Below, piece by piece: positions 39,508-63,404 of a stretch of DNA of 64,000 nt. The notes under the pieces are model-generated. The model did no database searches. It was not told the origin of the DNA and saw nothing but the letters and a program-made list of their open reading frames with translations. Made by a program: the position numbers and the translations under genes. Within the stretch, counting starts at the first letter, position 1; each line of letters opens with the position of its first letter. Origin of the DNA: Alloprevotella tannerae ATCC 51259 (lineage in GTDB: Bacteria > Bacteroidota > Bacteroidia > Bacteroidales > Bacteroidaceae); the NCBI RefSeq assembly GCF_000159995.1, contig NZ_GG700643.1, positions 985,195-1,049,194 of the forward strand, written 5' to 3'.

Positions 39508-39592
39508 GGAGAGATGGTAGAGTGGTCGATTACAGCGGTCTTGAAAACCGCCGTGCTGAGAGGCACCGGGGGTTCGAATCCCTCTCTCTCCG
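39508..39592 (+). tRNA. tRNA-Ser (anticodon UGA)
   Basis: The 85-nt sequence folds as a class II tRNA. The acceptor arms are GGAGAGA and TCTCTCC with discriminator G. The anticodon loop is CTTGAAA with anticodon TGA, the long variable arm is typical of Ser, and the T loop is TTCGAAT. No CCA is encoded. It borders the conjugative element, but no copy of its 3' end was found at the far side. Confidence 0.93.
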
Positions 39593-41929: not shown

Positions 41930-42253
41930 CTATTGGTTATATAAAACTGTGACACAAAGCAAGATTGAAAACACTGCCACCAGGATGGTGGTAGGTGCCG
42001 GCACCTTAATGGCCAAAAATACCGTGAAGAGCACAAGCAATATGTTTATGGCAAGCGTGTAACGGAAAGTGACGGGCATTTGAAGCTGATAATGCAAGCC
42101 ATTGGCTAAACCGGCAAATACAAGTGCCAACCCCGCACTGAAAAACCAAAAGGCTTCGGCTGAAAGTTGGTTGTATTTCTTGAAACTGAGTGCCGAATGG
42201 GCGATGCCTAGCAACATTATCCCAACAATGGCAACAAGATGCAATGTCCTCAT
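41930..42253 (-). CDS. Small four-helix membrane protein
   Basis: A 107-residue protein made of four hydrophobic helices (about 4-24, 33-52, 59-79 and 85-105) with short polar loops. No family was recognised. It is the only minus-strand gene in the left arm of the element and is next to a MITE, so it is likely cargo. A second frame in the same place lacks this helix pattern. Confidence 0.6.
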   Translation of the reverse strand: MRTLHLVAIVGIMLLGIAHSALSFKKYNQLSAEAFWFFSAGLALVFAGLANGLHYQLQMPVTFRYTLAINILLVLFTVFLAIKVPAPTTILVAVFSILLCVTVLYNQ

Positions 42254-42295
42254 AAGTCAAAAGTTTATGTCTTTTTCACAAAGGTACGAATAATT

Positions 42296-42458
42296 GTAAC
42301 TATTCAGCGATAATGAACGTTGAATATCAAGAACTTATAAACGTAACATTGTGGCAAAAAGGTTCAAAATGACATTCTTTACCAAAATTTGTATGTGTTT
42401 TTTATGTAACTTCTTGATAATCAACAGTGGTTTATACGCCTTATCGCTGAATAGTTAC
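42296..42458. mobile_element. MITE with IS66-like ends
   Basis: A 163-bp element with perfect 18-bp inverted ends GTAACTATTCAGCGATAA (42296-42313, and inverted at 42441-42458). The 8-bp GAATAATT stands directly outside both ends. IS66-family elements begin with GTAA and make 8-bp duplications, so this is probably a non-autonomous derivative. The inner parts TTGAATATCAAGAA and TTCTTGATAATCAA also pair. No coding capacity. Confidence 0.9.
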
Positions 42459-42480
42459 GAATAATTTCTATAAAAGGGGC

Positions 42481-42528
42481 ATGTGGCCAGTATAAGTCAT
42501 AGCCGGTTATCACCGACAGTGGCCACAT
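42481..42528. terminator. Hairpin, possible terminator
   Basis: Perfect 9-bp arms ATGTGGCCA (42481-42489) and TGGCCACAT (42520-42528), followed by TCTCTTTTCCCC. It separates the MITE from the structured leader of the next operon. Confidence 0.5.
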
Positions 42529-42628
42529 TCTCTTTTCCCCTTATCTTGGCTTTGCACTTTCGCTTCTTTTCCGAAACTCCACCTTATGCAATGTCATAAA
42601 GGCGGATGCTGTTCCCTTTTTATCCGCA

Positions 42629-42748
42629 AAGGTAGTACGGGGCTTACGGCTTCTCCAAGGTCGCAGCCTTTGGTTTGGCTGGAAAATCTCCACGCCTGCG
42701 GGTAGTATTTTCCGCCAAAACCTTGTGTAAGCCACGCCCCGCTACCTT
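42629..42748 (+). ncRNA. Candidate structured leader RNA of the PcfK-ArdA-PcfJ operon
   Basis: AAGGTAG (42629-42635) pairs with CTACCTT (42742-42748), CGGGG (42638-42642) with CCCCG (42737-42741), and CTTAC (42643-42647) with GTAAG (42727-42731). The closed domain contains GGCT/AGCC (42648-42651 with 42665-42668) and GGCTGGAAAAT/ATTTTCCGCC (42677-42687 with 42707-42716), giving a three-way-junction layout. A further hairpin GCGGAT/ATCCGC (42602-42627) lies in front. The next ATG is 62 bases downstream. Strand is assumed from the operon. Confidence 0.5.
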
Positions 42749-42810
42749 GATTTTGCTACAAAAAGGAATCAGCATACTCCGATCTTTGGACGCATAAAAA
42801 AAATGTCGTT

Positions 42811-43242
42811 ATGGATAAGCAGAAAGTAGATACAACATCTTCGATGAACAGAAAAGGATATAGCTCCTCCTCTCATTACCGCATTAACCCTGTGGTTGGA
42901 CAAAGTGGGCAAATGTTGGCAATCAAGTTCGTACAATGGGACGTACCCTCTTTGGAGAGCCTTTGTAACAGCAAGGTCTATATCCTGCGTGCAAAACTCA
43001 ATCGTGACGAACGTATGAGCCGTGAGGAAAAGAATTGGCTATGTGAAGCGGTGAACTCAAACACTTATTTCCGTACAGCCGTTCCTCTTATGGGCTACCG
43101 CTTTGATTTCTTTGATGTACTGAAAAAATACCTTGTAAATCAGTACGGACAATGGACAGAGTACTATGCTCCCGACAGAGCAAGCCTGAGAACCTACCTA
43201 TACGGACACATCAATCAAATTGTAGAACTCCCTAAACATTAA
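42811..43242 (+). CDS. Conserved element protein of unknown function
   Basis: A 143-residue protein of a type I associate with Bacteroidales conjugative elements, first in the operon with PcfK, ArdA and PcfJ. Visible parts are YRINPVVGQSGQMLAIKFV, VYILRAKLNRDERMSREEKNWL and a C-terminal YLYGHINQIVEL. No domain with known activity was recognised. The gap to pcfK is 6 bases. Confidence 0.65.
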   Translation: MDKQKVDTTSSMNRKGYSSSSHYRINPVVGQSGQMLAIKFVQWDVPSLESLCNSKVYILRAKLNRDERMSREEKNWLCEAVNSNTYFRTAVPLMGYRFDFFDVLKKYLVNQYGQWTEYYAPDRASLRTYLYGHINQIVELPKH

Positions 43243-43248
43243 GAAGAC

Positions 43249-43662
43249 ATGAAAGGAACGGAACATTTCACACGGACAATAGCCGAGTATCTCAACCAGC
43301 GTGCAGCGTCAGACCCCTTGTTTGCCCCCAACTTGATGAAGCCTAACAAGAACATAGAGGATTGTGTAACCTACATCTTGAACGAGGTGAAGAAAAGCGG
43401 TTGCAATGGTTTCGACGACGATGAAATCTACTCTATGGCAGTGCATTTTTTCGATGAGGATAATATCGACATCGGCAAACCGCTCGATTGCCACGTGGCA
43501 GTAAACCATGTGGTACAGCTCACAGAAGAGGAAAAGGCGGAAGCACGCAAGCAAGCCATCGAGCAGTACCAACGCGAACAGCTTGCCAAGATGCGCAGCC
43601 ACAGCGAGCGAACCAAGAAAGCGGAAAACAAGGTTGCACAACCCTCCTTATTTGATTTTTAA
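43249..43662 (+). CDS. PcfK-like protein
   Basis: A 137-residue acidic protein of the PcfK-like family, a constant companion of PcfJ on Bacteroidales conjugative elements and named after enterococcal pCF10 genes. FTRTIAEYLNQRAASDPLF opens the conserved domain, and the C-terminal third is a charged helix (about 92-125) ending in QPSLFDF. Its exact role in transfer is not established. Confidence 0.8.
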   Translation: MKGTEHFTRTIAEYLNQRAASDPLFAPNLMKPNKNIEDCVTYILNEVKKSGCNGFDDDEIYSMAVHFFDEDNIDIGKPLDCHVAVNHVVQLTEEEKAEARKQAIEQYQREQLAKMRSHSERTKKAENKVAQPSLFDF

Positions 43663-43682: not shown

Positions 43683-44213
43683 ATGAAAGCAATGGATTTG
43701 AACAAAGCACGGATTTACGTAGGCACTTATAGGAAATATAACAAAGGCTCGTTACAAGGCGGATGGGTGGACATGGCGGACTTCTATGACTTGGAAGAGT
43801 TTTGGGAACGTTGTGCCAAGATACACGAGGACGAGGAAGAACCCGAATACATGTTCCAAGACTGGGAGAACATCCCCGAAGGCTTGATAGACGAGGGCAA
43901 CTTGGAAGAGAACTTCTTTGAACTTCGGGACGAATTGGACAAGCTGAACGACACCGAGAAAGAAGCCTTTTGGGTATGGGCGTACTATGAGGGAGTGAAC
44001 CTATGCAAAGACGCCTATTTCCTCGTAAGGTCTTTCCAATCCGCCTTTGTGGGGCGTTATGCCGACAAGGAGGAGTTCGCAAAGGAACTTGTGGGGATGG
44101 AACACGAACTTTGCGAGTTCGCACTTTCCTACTTCGATTACGGCAAATATGCCGATGACCTTTTTATGACAGACTTCTGGTTTGAGGACGGCTATGTTTT
44201 TCGCAACAGATAG
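43683..44213 (+). CDS. ardA: Antirestriction protein ArdA
   Basis: ArdA mimics B-form DNA and blocks type I restriction enzymes when the element enters a new host. The 176-residue protein is very acidic (many Glu and Asp) and begins ARIYVGTYRKYNKGSLQGGW, the family N terminus. The other features are DLEEFWERCAKIHEDEEEPE and a negative C-terminal half. The start may be the first ATG or the one three codons later. It sits between pcfK and pcfJ. Confidence 0.9.
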   Translation: MKAMDLNKARIYVGTYRKYNKGSLQGGWVDMADFYDLEEFWERCAKIHEDEEEPEYMFQDWENIPEGLIDEGNLEENFFELRDELDKLNDTEKEAFWVWAYYEGVNLCKDAYFLVRSFQSAFVGRYADKEEFAKELVGMEHELCEFALSYFDYGKYADDLFMTDFWFEDGYVFRNR

Positions 44214-44230: not shown

Positions 44231-45505
44231 ATGAAACCGAGAAACAAATTTGAAAAGGCTGTACTTGCTGAAAGCAAGCGTTTGCGCCCAATCACCAAGA
44301 CACAGACCAAATGGGCATTCCGTGAGTGTATCGCCCACTTTGCCTACCGACTGCCCAAAGGTCGCACCACGTGTATGGACTGCGGACATGGTTGGCTGAT
44401 GGAAAAGCCCACCCAAACTTGCACCTGCCCTCATTGTGGGGCAAGGTTGCAGGTTAAGGAAACCTACGGACGCAAATTACAGCTGAAACAATACTTCACT
44501 GTCCTTACCACCTGTGGAGCGTACCAAGTGTTGCGCATGTTCCTAATGATTGTAGGCATGGAGAAAGGTTGTAAGGCGCAATATGAAATACTCGAAATCG
44601 GTCAGCATTGGTGGAACGGGCAAGGGCGAAAGGTCGTGGTAGGCATCCAACGCACATGGGGATATTATGTGGACACGTTTTCTTTCTATTCGCCAATGGC
44701 AGTGCGCAACGACAACGAAGCTTATCGTTACGTGGCTTGTGCGCCCATATACCCCAAGTTTAAGGTAACGGACACGCTCCGCAGGAACGGCTTTAAGGAC
44801 GATTTTCACCAAATCGCACCAATTGACCTAATCTCAGCACTACTTGCCGACAGCCGAGCGGAAACCCTCATCAAGGCAGGACGCATAGACCACTTGCGCT
44901 ATTTCCTCAACAGCACAAGGGCATTTGAAGCTTATTGGCAGTCCTATAAGATTGCAGTTCGCAACGGATATGAGATAAAGGACATTTCCTTGTGGTGCGA
45001 TTATGTGGATATGCTCCTCCATTTGGGTAAGGACACCCGAAGCCCGAAATACCTTTGTCCTATCGACCTCACAGCCGAACACGACCGCAGGCAAGCCGAG
45101 CTTTGCAGACAGCGAGAGAGGGAGGAAATAGAAAGGAAAAGAATGAGGGCAATGGAAAACGAAAAACGTTTCCGAGAACTCAAATCCAAGTTCTTCGGTA
45201 TCTGTTTCACGGACGGCACTATCCAAGTCCGTGTATTGGAGAGCGTGCAAGAGCATTTGGAAGAAGGGGTAGCCTTACATCATTGTGTTTTTTCAAATGG
45301 ATACTACCTTAAAGAAGACTCCCTTATCCTTTCGGCAACCATTGAAGGCAAGCGGATTGAAACCATCGAAGTATCACTGCAAACGTTGAAAGTTGTGCAA
45401 AGCCGTGGAGTTTGCAACAAGAATACGGAATACCACGAGCAAATAGTGAACCTTGTCAATTCCAACAGCAAGCTTATCCACCAAAGAATGAAGGCAACAG
45501 CATAA
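44231..45505 (+). CDS. PcfJ-like protein
   Basis: A 424-residue protein of the PcfJ-like family. Near residues 55-80 it has two CxxC pairs (CMDCGH and CTCPHCG), a likely zinc ribbon. The middle is helical with a long charged coiled coil around 290-320. The C-terminal part has LHHCVFSNGYYLKEDSLILSA, which is the conserved PcfJ core. The activity is unknown; association with conjugation is from genomic context. Confidence 0.85.
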   Translation: MKPRNKFEKAVLAESKRLRPITKTQTKWAFRECIAHFAYRLPKGRTTCMDCGHGWLMEKPTQTCTCPHCGARLQVKETYGRKLQLKQYFTVLTTCGAYQVLRMFLMIVGMEKGCKAQYEILEIGQHWWNGQGRKVVVGIQRTWGYYVDTFSFYSPMAVRNDNEAYRYVACAPIYPKFKVTDTLRRNGFKDDFHQIAPIDLISALLADSRAETLIKAGRIDHLRYFLNSTRAFEAYWQSYKIAVRNGYEIKDISLWCDYVDMLLHLGKDTRSPKYLCPIDLTAEHDRRQAELCRQREREEIERKRMRAMENEKRFRELKSKFFGICFTDGTIQVRVLESVQEHLEEGVALHHCVFSNGYYLKEDSLILSATIEGKRIETIEVSLQTLKVVQSRGVCNKNTEYHEQIVNLVNSNSKLIHQRMKATA

Positions 45506-59073: not shown

Positions 59074-59615
59074 ACTATAGATATTTTTATCGTTTGAACT
59101 ATAATTTGAGTGGTAGTTCGTTAGAATAATCGTCACAGCAAATTATTAATTCTTTTATCTGTCGAAATACCGAATTATCTATCGTTTTATTTGTCGATTT
59201 GTCGAAATCTCGATAGTTCTATCTGACGATATATTGAACTATTGAAATAGAGTTCGTCATATCGTTCTTTAAATAGTTCTATCGAACGATATTCTATTCG
59301 TTTTGTCTGCAAAATAAAAGCTTTTTCGATAGATATTTCTATGCGATAGAAGTACAAGGAAATGCAAGGAAAAAGAGTGAATATCATTGATAATAAGATT
59401 TTTGAAAATCTACCGTAACGTTGCAGCCAGATAGAAGATATGGAGGTATACTCTTCGAAGCAGACACCCTTACAGGTGGATGCTTCTATTGCATCAACTC
59501 TTGATATTGGCAAGGTGTGTCTTTGTAACACAAACCGCCGTTTGTACCACAAAGGCCCTTGCCCTGAAGGAGAGATGAATTACTCCAAAGTCGTAATTAA
59601 AAAACAGAAGGGATT
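59074..59615. promoter_or_regulatory. Divergent traA/mobA region, candidate oriT or partition site
   Basis: This 542-base AT-rich gap holds nine TATCG or CGATA pentamers between about 59088 and 59349. It also holds a 20-bp near-direct repeat (ATAGTTCTATCTGACGATAT at 59213-59232; ATAGTTCTATCGAACGATAT at 59273-59292) spaced exactly 60 bases. It lies before the mob genes, where oriT is found in related elements, and beside a ParA-like gene. The minus-strand frame through it shows no domain. Confidence 0.55.
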
Positions 59616-60029
59616 ATGAATAAGGACACGGAACACGGTTCAGAACGAAAAACCGCAGAAAAACCCCGTTGGGACAACTGGCATGTACGGCTACCCAATC
59701 CCAAAGACCAGCAAAGGGCGATAGATTTGTTTCAGCGTTCGGGTGCAGAAACAAAGTCAGATTTTGTGCGTGGTCGTATCCTTGGAGAGAGTTTCAAGGT
59801 GATTACTGTAGATAAATCCGCCGTGGAATACTACCGAAAGCTCTCGGAATTGACGGCACAAATCCATAAGATCGGCGTGCTGTATAACCAAACTGTGCGT
59901 GCCATCAACAGCTATCACAGCGTGAAGACCGCACAGATTATGCTTGAAAAAATAGAAAATTTGCCGGCTCAAATTATCACCTTACAGGAGCAGGCTATCA
60001 GTCTTACCATAGATTACCGCAAAAAATGA
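59616..60029 (+). CDS. mobA: Mobilisation protein MobA (relaxosome accessory)
   Basis: A 137-residue protein of the MobA/MobC-like relaxosome accessory type, expected to bind oriT. The N-terminal part has WHVRLPNPKDQQRAIDLFQRSG, a ribbon-helix-helix-like start, followed by a helical C-terminal half. Its stop overlaps the mobB start by 4 bases. Confidence 0.85.
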   Translation: MNKDTEHGSERKTAEKPRWDNWHVRLPNPKDQQRAIDLFQRSGAETKSDFVRGRILGESFKVITVDKSAVEYYRKLSELTAQIHKIGVLYNQTVRAINSYHSVKTAQIMLEKIENLPAQIITLQEQAISLTIDYRKK

Positions 60030-61306
60030 TTGCGAAGATTTCATCCACGGAAAACCTTGGAGGGGCACTTGGGTATAACTTCAAAAAAGTGGAGAAAGGG
60101 GAAGCGAGCATTCTTCTTGCTGCTGAGTTGTATCAAGACAAGGAAGGTAGTTATACGATAGAGGAAGTGTTTGCCGATATGGAGGCATTGATACCGAAGA
60201 AATGCCGAACAAAGAAAACGGTCTTTCACTGTTCCCTCAATCCTCACCCAGATGAAAAGTTATCCGATGAGACCCTTGTTAAAATTGCGAAGGAGTATAT
60301 GGAGGCACTTGGCTATGGCAAGCAACCCTATATCGTCTTTAAGCATAATGACATTGCCCGTGAACATATACACATCGTGTCGCTTCGGGTGGACAGTGAG
60401 GGGCGAAAGCTCAACGACCGCTTCGAGAAACGAAGGAGTAAACAGATTACAGATGCTTTGGAGAGAAAGTATAATCTCATTCCAAGTTCAAAGGTTACTG
60501 ACAAGGCGATGAAAGAAACGCCCAAGATAGACACCAACAAAGGGAAGATCAAGGAACAGGTGGCAAATGTTGTCCGCATGGTGCTGAAGCATTATTGTTT
60601 CTGTTCCTTGGGCGAACTGAATGCCATCCTGAGTAAATATAACCTTGCCGTGGAAGAAGTGAAGACGGAGTTTCGTGGGAAGAAATATGATGGGCTGGTC
60701 TATGTTCCGACCGATGATAAGGGAGGCAAAATAAGTACACCCATCAACGCATCGGACATCGGTCGTGGTGTGGGCTATACTGCTGTGCAGAACAGGATGC
60801 AGAAATCGAAGCTAGCCGTCAAGCCGTTGGTGCCGGCTATAAGGGACAAGGTATTACAGACTATGCGTACTTCTCCCCGGACGGAGGAAGAACTGCGACA
60901 AAGGTTGGAGGAACAAGGCTTGCGTGTGGTAATCCGAAAGAACGAAAGCGGACGCATCTATGGCATTACTTTCATTGATGATGAAGTGGGCATTGCGCTC
61001 AACGGCTCACGATTGGGCAAGGGGTATGCTGCCAACATATTCAATGCGTATTTCTCCAATTCAACGTACAACCCATTCTTGGACGAAACGTTGTATGGCA
61101 GTCCGTCTGTCCGCTTGGAACAATCGGCAACCGTTCAAACTTTGCAACAAAATACAGAAGAAAGCGACAACCTTGTCGATGAACTTATCGAGGATATGGT
61201 GGGTGAATCATTCGGAACTACGGGCAACGATGATTGGAAGGAAGCGGCATGGCAGCGTAAACTCCGCAGACAAAGTAAGGTAAAACTTAGACGAAGAAAA
61301 CATTAA
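60026..61306 (+). CDS. mobB: Relaxase MobB
   Basis: Nicks oriT and pilots the transferred strand (426 residues, MOBP-like relaxase/mobilisation nuclease family). The metal-binding motif is HNDIAREHIHIV near residues 106-118. Upstream, KTVFHCSLNPHPDEKLS and LGYGKQPYIVFKH are the other family motifs. The C-terminal part is variable. Coupled to mobA by overlap. Confidence 0.93.
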   Translation: MIAKISSTENLGGALGYNFKKVEKGEASILLAAELYQDKEGSYTIEEVFADMEALIPKKCRTKKTVFHCSLNPHPDEKLSDETLVKIAKEYMEALGYGKQPYIVFKHNDIAREHIHIVSLRVDSEGRKLNDRFEKRRSKQITDALERKYNLIPSSKVTDKAMKETPKIDTNKGKIKEQVANVVRMVLKHYCFCSLGELNAILSKYNLAVEEVKTEFRGKKYDGLVYVPTDDKGGKISTPINASDIGRGVGYTAVQNRMQKSKLAVKPLVPAIRDKVLQTMRTSPRTEEELRQRLEEQGLRVVIRKNESGRIYGITFIDDEVGIALNGSRLGKGYAANIFNAYFSNSTYNPFLDETLYGSPSVRLEQSATVQTLQQNTEESDNLVDELIEDMVGESFGTTGNDDWKEAAWQRKLRRQSKVKLRRRKH

Positions 61307-61400
61307 ATAAACGAGCATTTCTATCTCCCCTCCCTTTCTTCCCTTTGGTCAGAGACCGTTGGTTCGGAGGGGTTGGGGGAGGCTACAAAATAATATTATT

Positions 61401-63404
61401 ATGGCACAGGAAGATGATTTAAGGGCATTAGGTAAGGTCATGGACTTTATGCGGGGTATATCGGTGATATTCCTCCTGATTAACTGTTATTGGTTCTGCT
61501 ACGAGGCGTTTTACGAGTGGCACTTCACGCTCGGTATCATCAACAAGATACTGATGAACTTTCAGCGCACTACGAACTTGTTTTCGTCCATCCTTTGGAC
61601 AAAACTCTTTTGTGTGGTGTTCCTTGCTTTGTCATGTTTGGGTACAAAAGGCGTGAAAGAAGAGAAAATCACGTGGCCAAAGATTTGGACGGTGCTTTTC
61701 TTCGGCTTCGTCTTTTTCTTTCTCAACTGGTGGCTGCTGGCATTGCCCATTGGAAAAGTCGGAGCAGCTACGCTCTATATCTTCACACTGTCTGTGGGCT
61801 ATATATGCCTGTTGATGGGTGGTGTGTGGATGAGCCGACTGCTCAAAAACAACTTGATGGACGATGTTTTCAACACGGAGAACGAGAGTTTCATGCAGGA
61901 AACACGGTTGATGGAGAATGAGTATTCCGTCAATCTCCCTACACGCTTCTACTATAAGAAGAAGTGGAACAAGGGCTGGATCAATGTGGTCAATCCTTTC
62001 CGTGCCTCGATGGTGCTGGGTACGCCCGGTTCGGGTAAGTCGTATGCCATCGTAAACAATTATATCAAGCAGCAGATAGAGAAAGGCTTTGCGATGTATA
62101 TCTACGACTATAAGTTCCCCGATTTGTCGGAGATAGCCTACAATCATCTGCTTCATCATTTGAAGGCCTACAAGGTGAAACCGCAGTTCTATGTCATCAA
62201 CTTTGACGACCCACGTAGGTCTCACCGATGCAATCCCATCAATCCCGCCTTTATGACGGACATATCAGATGCCTACGAGAGTGCCTACACGATTATGCTC
62301 AACCTTAACCGCTCGTGGATTCAGAAACAGGGAGATTCCTTCGTCGAGTCTCCGATTATCTTGCTGGCTGCTATCATTTGGTTCCTGAAAATCTATGAGA
62401 ACGGAAAGTATTGCACCTTTCCTCATGCCATTGAGTTTTTGAACCGCCCCTATGCTCAGATATTCCCGATACTCACTTCCTACGATGAACTTGCCAACTA
62501 TCTTTCGCCCTTTATGGATGCTTGGGAGGGCGGAGTACAAGACCAGTTACAAGGACAGATTGCCAGTGCCAAGATACCGCTTTCACGCATGATTTCACCA
62601 GCACTCTATTGGGTGATGACGGGCGATGATTTTTCTCTTGACATCAACAATCCCAACGAGCCCAAAGTACTTGTAGTGGGCAATAATCCCGACCGTCAGA
62701 ATATCTACTCGGCAGCCCTCGGTCTGTATAACAGCCGTATCGTGAAACTCATCAATAAGAAGAAGCAACTCAAATCCTCCGTGATTATCGACGAGTTGCC
62801 GACTATCTATTTCCGAGGCTTGGATAATCTCATTGCCACTGCCCGAAGCAACAAGGTGGCTGTATGCTTGGGCTTTCAGGACTTTTCACAGCTCACCCGT
62901 GACTATGGCGACAAGGAGAGCAAGGTAATCCAGAACACGGTAGGTAATGTATTTAGTGGTCAGGTCGTAGGCGAAACTGCTAAGACGCTTTCCGAGCGTT
63001 TCGGAAAGGTACTCCAGCAGCGGCAGTCCATGACCATCAACCGTAACGACAAATCAACATCAATCTCCACTCAAATGGACAGTCTTATCCCGGCAAGCAA
63101 GATTTCCAACCTCACGCAAGGTATGTTCGTGGGGGCAGTGTCTGACAATTTTGACGAACGTATTGACCAAAAGATTTTCCATGCGGAGATAGTCGTGGAT
63201 AGTGCCAAAATCTCCGCCGAGATGAAAGCCTATCAACCAATCCCTATAATCGCAGACTTTACAAACGAAGATGGCTTCGACAATCTCAAAGAGACTATCG
63301 AAGCCAACTATAAACGCATCAAACAAGAGATTCTCTCACTTGTGGAATTGGAGAAGGAACGCATTAAAGCGGATCCGACTCTTGCCCACTTAAACAAGGA
63401 GTAG
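61401..63404 (+). CDS. mobC: Type IV coupling protein MobC (VirD4/TraG family)
   Basis: Brings the relaxosome to the channel. The 667-residue protein has two to four N-terminal helices, then Walker A GTPGSGKSYAIV near 207, and VIIDELPTIYFRGLDNLIATARS, a Walker B with the coupling-protein signature. The start MAQEDDLRALGKVMDFM is preferred over one 14 codons earlier. It appears to be the last gene of the element. Confidence 0.93.
   Translation: MAQEDDLRALGKVMDFMRGISVIFLLINCYWFCYEAFYEWHFTLGIINKILMNFQRTTNLFSSILWTKLFCVVFLALSCLGTKGVKEEKITWPKIWTVLFFGFVFFFLNWWLLALPIGKVGAATLYIFTLSVGYICLLMGGVWMSRLLKNNLMDDVFNTENESFMQETRLMENEYSVNLPTRFYYKKKWNKGWINVVNPFRASMVLGTPGSGKSYAIVNNYIKQQIEKGFAMYIYDYKFPDLSEIAYNHLLHHLKAYKVKPQFYVINFDDPRRSHRCNPINPAFMTDISDAYESAYTIMLNLNRSWIQKQGDSFVESPIILLAAIIWFLKIYENGKYCTFPHAIEFLNRPYAQIFPILTSYDELANYLSPFMDAWEGGVQDQLQGQIASAKIPLSRMISPALYWVMTGDDFSLDINNPNEPKVLVVGNNPDRQNIYSAALGLYNSRIVKLINKKKQLKSSVIIDELPTIYFRGLDNLIATARSNKVAVCLGFQDFSQLTRDYGDKESKVIQNTVGNVFSGQVVGETAKTLSERFGKVLQQRQSMTINRNDKSTSISTQMDSLIPASKISNLTQGMFVGAVSDNFDERIDQKIFHAEIVVDSAKISAEMKAYQPIPIIADFTNEDGFDNLKETIEANYKRIKQEILSLVELEKERIKADPTLAHLNKE

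Follow-up and report, generated by a model that had tools for sequence, protein, structure and literature searches.

The Frpo element of the F plasmid is a single-strand stem-loop that rebuilds the -10 and -35 boxes of a promoter (PMC9849209), and both transcription and priming are attributed to it in the title of Masai and Arai (1997). Plasmid ColIb-P9 contains ssi promoters, one of which serves ardA (Nasim 2004 and Bates 1999, as cited in PMC3969726 and PMC9849209), and the ssb, psiB and ardA genes are expressed early in F and ColIb-P9 (PMC9849209). Frpo-like candidates have also been reported in anti-defence islands (PMC11541004). That survey was based on known Frpo sequences and the TTGACA/TATAAT consensus, and is therefore expected to miss the element described here; the string "Bacteroid" is absent from its main text. 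The literature that we searched, an incomplete set of published papers, contained no earlier description of single-strand promoters in Bacteroidota, nor of such a promoter in CTnDOT/CTn341-type Bacteroides conjugative transposons.

Here we analyzed a window of 64,000 nucleotides from Alloprevotella tannerae ATCC 51259, and conclude that positions 42601-42780 very probably constitute a single-stranded DNA promoter of a Bacteroidota integrative conjugative element (ICE), which in the manner of Frpo and ssi would turn on anti-restriction and ssDNA-management genes upon entry. Similar to Frpo1 and Frpo2 of F (PMC9849209; title of Masai and Arai 1997), it is a long ssDNA stem-loop with host promoter boxes rebuilt in the duplex arm, is located upstream of early genes such as ssb, and can be present in several copies per element. 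It differs from them in that it uses the Bacteroidota -33/-7 code and not -35/-10, is found in ICEs with a PF03432 relaxase, has a strongly conserved apical loop, and in that its promoter function is a prediction. With the ColIb-P9 ssi promoters, as cited above, it would share the transcription of ardA from a folded single strand at entry, but those belong to an enterobacterial plasmid with its own promoter code, whereas here the phylum is another and unk143, pcfK, ardA and pcfJ form one operon. Like the candidates in anti-defence islands, it is predicted to act as a single-strand promoter on the transferred strand with anti-defence genes behind it. A blastn search of the element against 72,556 plasmids returned only three Prevotella records and revealed no similarity to Frpo/ssi of F or ColIb-P9. 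Because it would work as Frpo does, but has no detectable sequence relation to it and uses another promoter code, we do not assign it to the Frpo sequence family.

A long hairpin upstream of the pcfK-ardA-pcfJ operon

The host element is an ICE that encodes a tyrosine integrase, a minus-strand tra operon and a divergent mob operon with a PF03432 relaxase, a layout shared with the CTnDOT/CTn341-type transposons. A tRNA gene (39508-39592) directly precedes the integrase gene and is the likely integration site. The hairpin is located between the integrase/DUF1896 genes and the unk143-pcfK-ardA-pcfJ operon. The original prediction, a folded leader RNA at 42602-42748, was right about folding potential, which is real and far exceeds that of shuffled sequence on either strand: folded as RNA, this region has an MFE of -60.4 kcal/mol on the plus strand (z -4.25) and -62.0 kcal/mol on the minus strand (z -4.79), and in both cases none of 200 shuffles was as good. 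With DNA folding parameters, region 42590-42800 gave a z-value of -6.8 when the minus strand was folded and -5.6 when the plus strand was. The extent given in that prediction was too small, however, because an outer stem formed by 42601-42621 and 42760-42780 encloses it. In addition, the three-way junction of about 120 nt that had been proposed was rejected, since the predicted fold is one long imperfect hairpin with internal loops that spans the 180 bases from 42601 to 42780. As in the Frpo/ssi-type class, we thus find a stable stem-loop in single-stranded DNA of a non-coding region. An antisense frame mentioned in the same prediction (42541-42735) is indeed present in the ORF list.

Other repeats were observed to the left of the element: an inverted repeat formed by 42291-42313 and 42441-42463 (91% complementary) and a further hairpin at 42473-42536. 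Several Prevotella copies have a terminator-like hairpin, GGTGGTTATCTC..GAGATAGCCACC, at about the position of these 42291-42536 repeats.

The features of the hairpin are as follows.

42601-42780, minus strand: whole hairpin element, predicted single-strand DNA promoter (DNA fold and aligned homologues)
42683-42711, minus strand: apical hairpin AAAATACTACCCGCAGGCGTGGAGATTTT, strongly conserved (homologue alignment and apical pattern)
42627-42634, minus strand: -7 box TACCTTTG (consensus TAnnTTTG), predicted non-template strand of the folded promoter (motif search; consensus from PMC7366714)
42656-42658, minus strand: -33 element TTG, 21 nt before the -7 box (motif search)
42743-42756, minus strand: template arm, in which AAGGTA pairs with TACCTT, followed by about 5 bulged nt opposite the -7 box and then GC (fold)
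42757-42763, plus strand: predicted start area of the operon mRNA, with the folded minus strand as template and a leader of about 50 nt (inferred from where the fold places the -7 box)

The hairpin is conserved with compensating changes

The genome of the strain itself contains four full copies of the element, and DNA homologues were found in 73 of 399 genomes of the family. In some divergent copies the 3' arms were not aligned correctly by MAFFT. We therefore based a covariance model on ten sequences and added arm-swap tests that need no alignment. In samples of genomes, the model, whose E-values are rough owing to a short calibration, matched 59 of 393 from the order and 19 of 395 from the phylum; many of the latter belong to other orders of the class. 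A pattern of the 29 apical bases occurred in at least 119 genome stretches, and all 80 names among the matches listed are Bacteroidota (Prevotella, Bacteroides, Porphyromonas, Flavobacterium, Mucilaginibacter and others). The pattern is also carried by 16 IMG/VR "viral" stretches (L256-L271), which may be ICEs misfiled as viruses or phages with the same device.

When arms were exchanged between copies, own arms paired with -31.6 kcal/mol versus -15.0 for swapped arms. The own partner arm ranked first in 24 of 28 divergent clusters, and none of 20000 permutations was as good; with seven groups, in a smaller version of the test, 3 of 5,040 were as good. These tests are cleaner than the model-fitted alignment, which leans toward structure and in which 94% of the cells pair and 454 are double-change cells, a number reached by none of 500 shuffles. 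Near-identical copies were clustered, and the remaining ones are still related, so that the counts here and in the following sections are not independent events. Judged from these comparisons, the structure is conserved with compensation across the Bacteroidota, far more than chance would give. The loss of stems without compensation, which according to the original prediction would refute it, was thus looked for, and both the arm swaps and the double changes indicate compensated stems.

The 3' arm contains an outward-facing promoter motif

The primary sigma factor of Bacteroidota recognizes TAnnTTTG at -7 and TTTG near -33 (PMC7366714). The 3' arm of the minus strand reads CCTTG-N21-TACCTTTGC, with N21 counted from TTG to TACC, and thereby contains a perfect sigma-ABfr promoter, TTG-N21-TACCTTTG, that faces out of the hairpin. 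On duplex DNA this promoter faces left and not toward the operon. When the minus strand is folded, the template would be the 5' arm, and transcription would therefore run toward the 5' end of the strand, where the operon is located. This corresponds to the arrangement of the Frpo/ssi class, with outward host promoter boxes, here of the Bacteroidota consensus, in the 3' arm and the folded strand as predicted template.

For the homologues, a strict promoter was defined as TTG-N17-23-TAnnTTTG, which has nine fixed letters. A perfect promoter was present on the 3' arm in 38 of 55 non-redundant model matches and never on the complement of the other arm. Because the covariance model itself could favour the promoter, the count was repeated on loci picked by the 29-nt apical pattern only. 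Again the promoter was found on the 3' arm (30 of 47 loci) and hardly on the other arm (1 of 47), with a background in this test of 1 in 940 shuffles and 3 in 248 distant windows. Some divergent copies do not contain a perfect promoter. The free letters of the -7 box vary (TACC, TAAC, TATC, TATT) and TA..TTTG is constant, as would be expected if a sigma factor constrains the sequence. In 33 of about 50 folds, 3-5 nt bulge out opposite the -7 box. The idea, raised in the original prediction as a further test, that the single-stranded DNA folds into a promoter is in agreement with the conserved sigma-ABfr boxes on the folded 3' arm.

A near-consensus plus-strand -7 box, GATCTTTG, is located between hairpin and operon (42781-42788) and is conserved in close Prevotella copies; it could give weak expression from duplex DNA. 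We rejected it as a conventional rightward promoter, as the strict search to the right of the hairpin on the operon strand gave 0 of 45 homologues.

Genes located behind the hairpins

The operon starts at 42811, and Pfam bears out the names PcfK, ArdA and PcfJ given to it in the original prediction, but its first gene is actually that of a 143-aa protein without Pfam family. Its genes are the following.

42811-43242, plus strand: 143-aa protein, first gene behind the predicted promoter, no Pfam family (ORF; homologues at the same place in other copies)
43249-43662, plus strand: PcfK-like protein (PF14058)
43683-44213, plus strand: ArdA antirestriction protein (PF07275)
44231-45505, plus strand: PcfJ-like protein (PF14284)

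Genes near the hairpins are mechanical ORFs, with Pfam support only where stated. The first genes behind the hairpins include those for SSB, ArdA, ArdC, a 1626-aa N6-methylase/helicase and PcfK, and RadC-like, DUF932, DUF4121 and DUF6943 proteins are also encoded there. Early genes (ssb and anti-restriction genes) are thus located directly behind the hairpins and would be read from the hairpin strand, as in the Frpo/ssi class. One contig (G703:C22) contains five copies on one strand, each with an ORF starting at most 60 nt away.

Homologues of the 143-aa protein occupy the same place behind other copies (L048, L029, L052 and L054), which makes it an unnamed early-gene candidate. In L074, L079, L091, L093, L094, L102 and L104, the first gene behind the hairpin encodes a protein of about 140 aa, which is DUF6943 in the two that were scanned (L074 and L091); this is a candidate early-entry or anti-defence gene.

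Orientation of the hairpins relative to the relaxase gene

The mobilization region of the ICE contains two relevant stretches.

59137-59615, no strand: tra/mob intergenic region, expected to contain oriT (operon layout)
59616-63404, plus strand: mob operon encoding a MobC_2-family protein, the PF03432 relaxase and a VirD4-type coupling protein (Pfam)

The position of the mob operon suggests that the minus strand would be transferred leftwards. A search for an IncP-like nick motif between the tra and mob operons gave no consistent match, and the nick direction of CTn341 is not given in PMC5729914. Frpo/ssi-type promoters are located on the transferred strand, in the leading region. The RP4 relaxase operon, which is read from the transfer strand, is the last part to enter (PMC7314908). 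In 40 of 47 cases the nearest relaxase was located 5'-ward and on the opposite strand, and 7 cases did not fit. At least one of these 7 involves a neighbouring element, and at least one (G299) has the expected relaxase slightly farther away; part of the orientation counts is explained by synteny from a shared ancestral ICE backbone. Taking relaxase orientation together with the RP4 rule, we infer that the hairpin strand would be the transferred strand.

Neighbouring copies share the same strand in 18 of 19 cases. The opposite-strand exception is a pair in the strain's own genome (G000:C5, positions 25781 and 47983), 22 kb apart, with no PF03432 relaxase among those listed nearby; these are probably two separate or decayed elements.

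Alternative explanations

The title of the original prediction was a folded leader RNA, that is, a conventional promoter to the left of 42601 and a 5' UTR whose fold controls the operon. The plus strand folds well too, and covariation alone cannot separate RNA from DNA. However, the operon strand left of the hairpin is not enriched in promoters: the strict motif occurred in 1 of 45 homologues against 0.55 expected by chance, compared to 29 of the same 45 on the arm. A leader RNA would also leave the conserved promoter letters on the other strand unexplained, and of the two strands the minus strand has the stronger DNA fold. The mismatches, read on the minus strand, are 84 G-T versus 30 A-C, an excess that would weakly favour this strand as the folded one, weakly because the model was built from it. 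Rfam 15 gave no family match for the element even at E <= 1, so that a known RNA family was rejected. We therefore consider a leader RNA very unlikely. Even less credence is given to an ordinary double-strand promoter on the minus strand that serves a leftward gene or small RNA, with the hairpin being incidental, a terminator or a barrier. The motif is good on duplex DNA, and a minus-strand ORF (41930-42253) is present to the left in the window, but a leftward gene is not conserved, and the left neighbour in two Prevotella records has the opposite orientation. ORFs of at least 100 aa start on this side in 5 of 25 cases versus 21 of 25 on the operon side, and a leftward transcript would exclude the hairpin and leave its compensated stems without a role.

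A hairpin that mainly yields an RNA primer for the complementary strand is, in our estimate, just as improbable as the duplex promoter. Both roles are named for Frpo in the title cited above, and an element with several copies in one orientation would be suited to repeated priming; the location of copies just before ORFs, often ssb or ardA, points instead to mRNA, and the two roles are compatible. The lowest probability is assigned to a cruciform-dependent promoter on the supercoiled double-stranded circular ICE, in which the minus-strand arm would form the same hairpin promoter. An imperfect arm of 180 nt is extruded slowly, and entry into a recipient accounts better for the gene content (ssb, ardA, ardC) and the orientation.

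Discussion

We favour a single-strand DNA promoter that would operate as follows. During conjugation the minus strand would enter the recipient 5' end first, with the operon ahead of the hairpin. Once inside, 42780-42601 would fold back, so that the 3' arm would provide the non-template strand of the sigma-ABfr promoter and the 5' arm its template, and the small bulge at the -7 box should ease promoter opening. Host RNA polymerase would start near 42760 and read the already-entered single strand toward 46022, and PcfK/ArdA/PcfJ mRNA would be made before the complementary strand exists. On double-stranded DNA the hairpin would be lost, the promoter would point the other way, and expression of the operon would stop. 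The original prediction had left open a regulatory RNA or a DNA structure for early genes such as ardA; the results strongly support its DNA-promoter branch and speak against the leader RNA.

With somewhat less confidence, we think it rather probable that single-strand promoters of this kind, which use the Bacteroidota sigma-ABfr consensus and have no sequence relation to Frpo, form a family across the whole phylum and control immediate anti-defence and ssDNA-protection genes in Bacteroidota ICEs. A protein of the host or of the element may contact the conserved apical loop specifically, and the promoter code may limit productive entry to Bacteroidota. If true, the switching-on of anti-defence genes from ssDNA would also exist in a second phylum, with a different promoter code. 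Early-entry genes could then be searched for by means of the hairpin in elements that are major carriers of genes between Bacteroidota, the orientation of the hairpin would predict the transfer direction of these ICEs, and the roles of the genes right behind the hairpins, such as those for the 143-aa protein, DUF6943, DUF932, DUF4121 and PcfK/PcfJ, would become testable.
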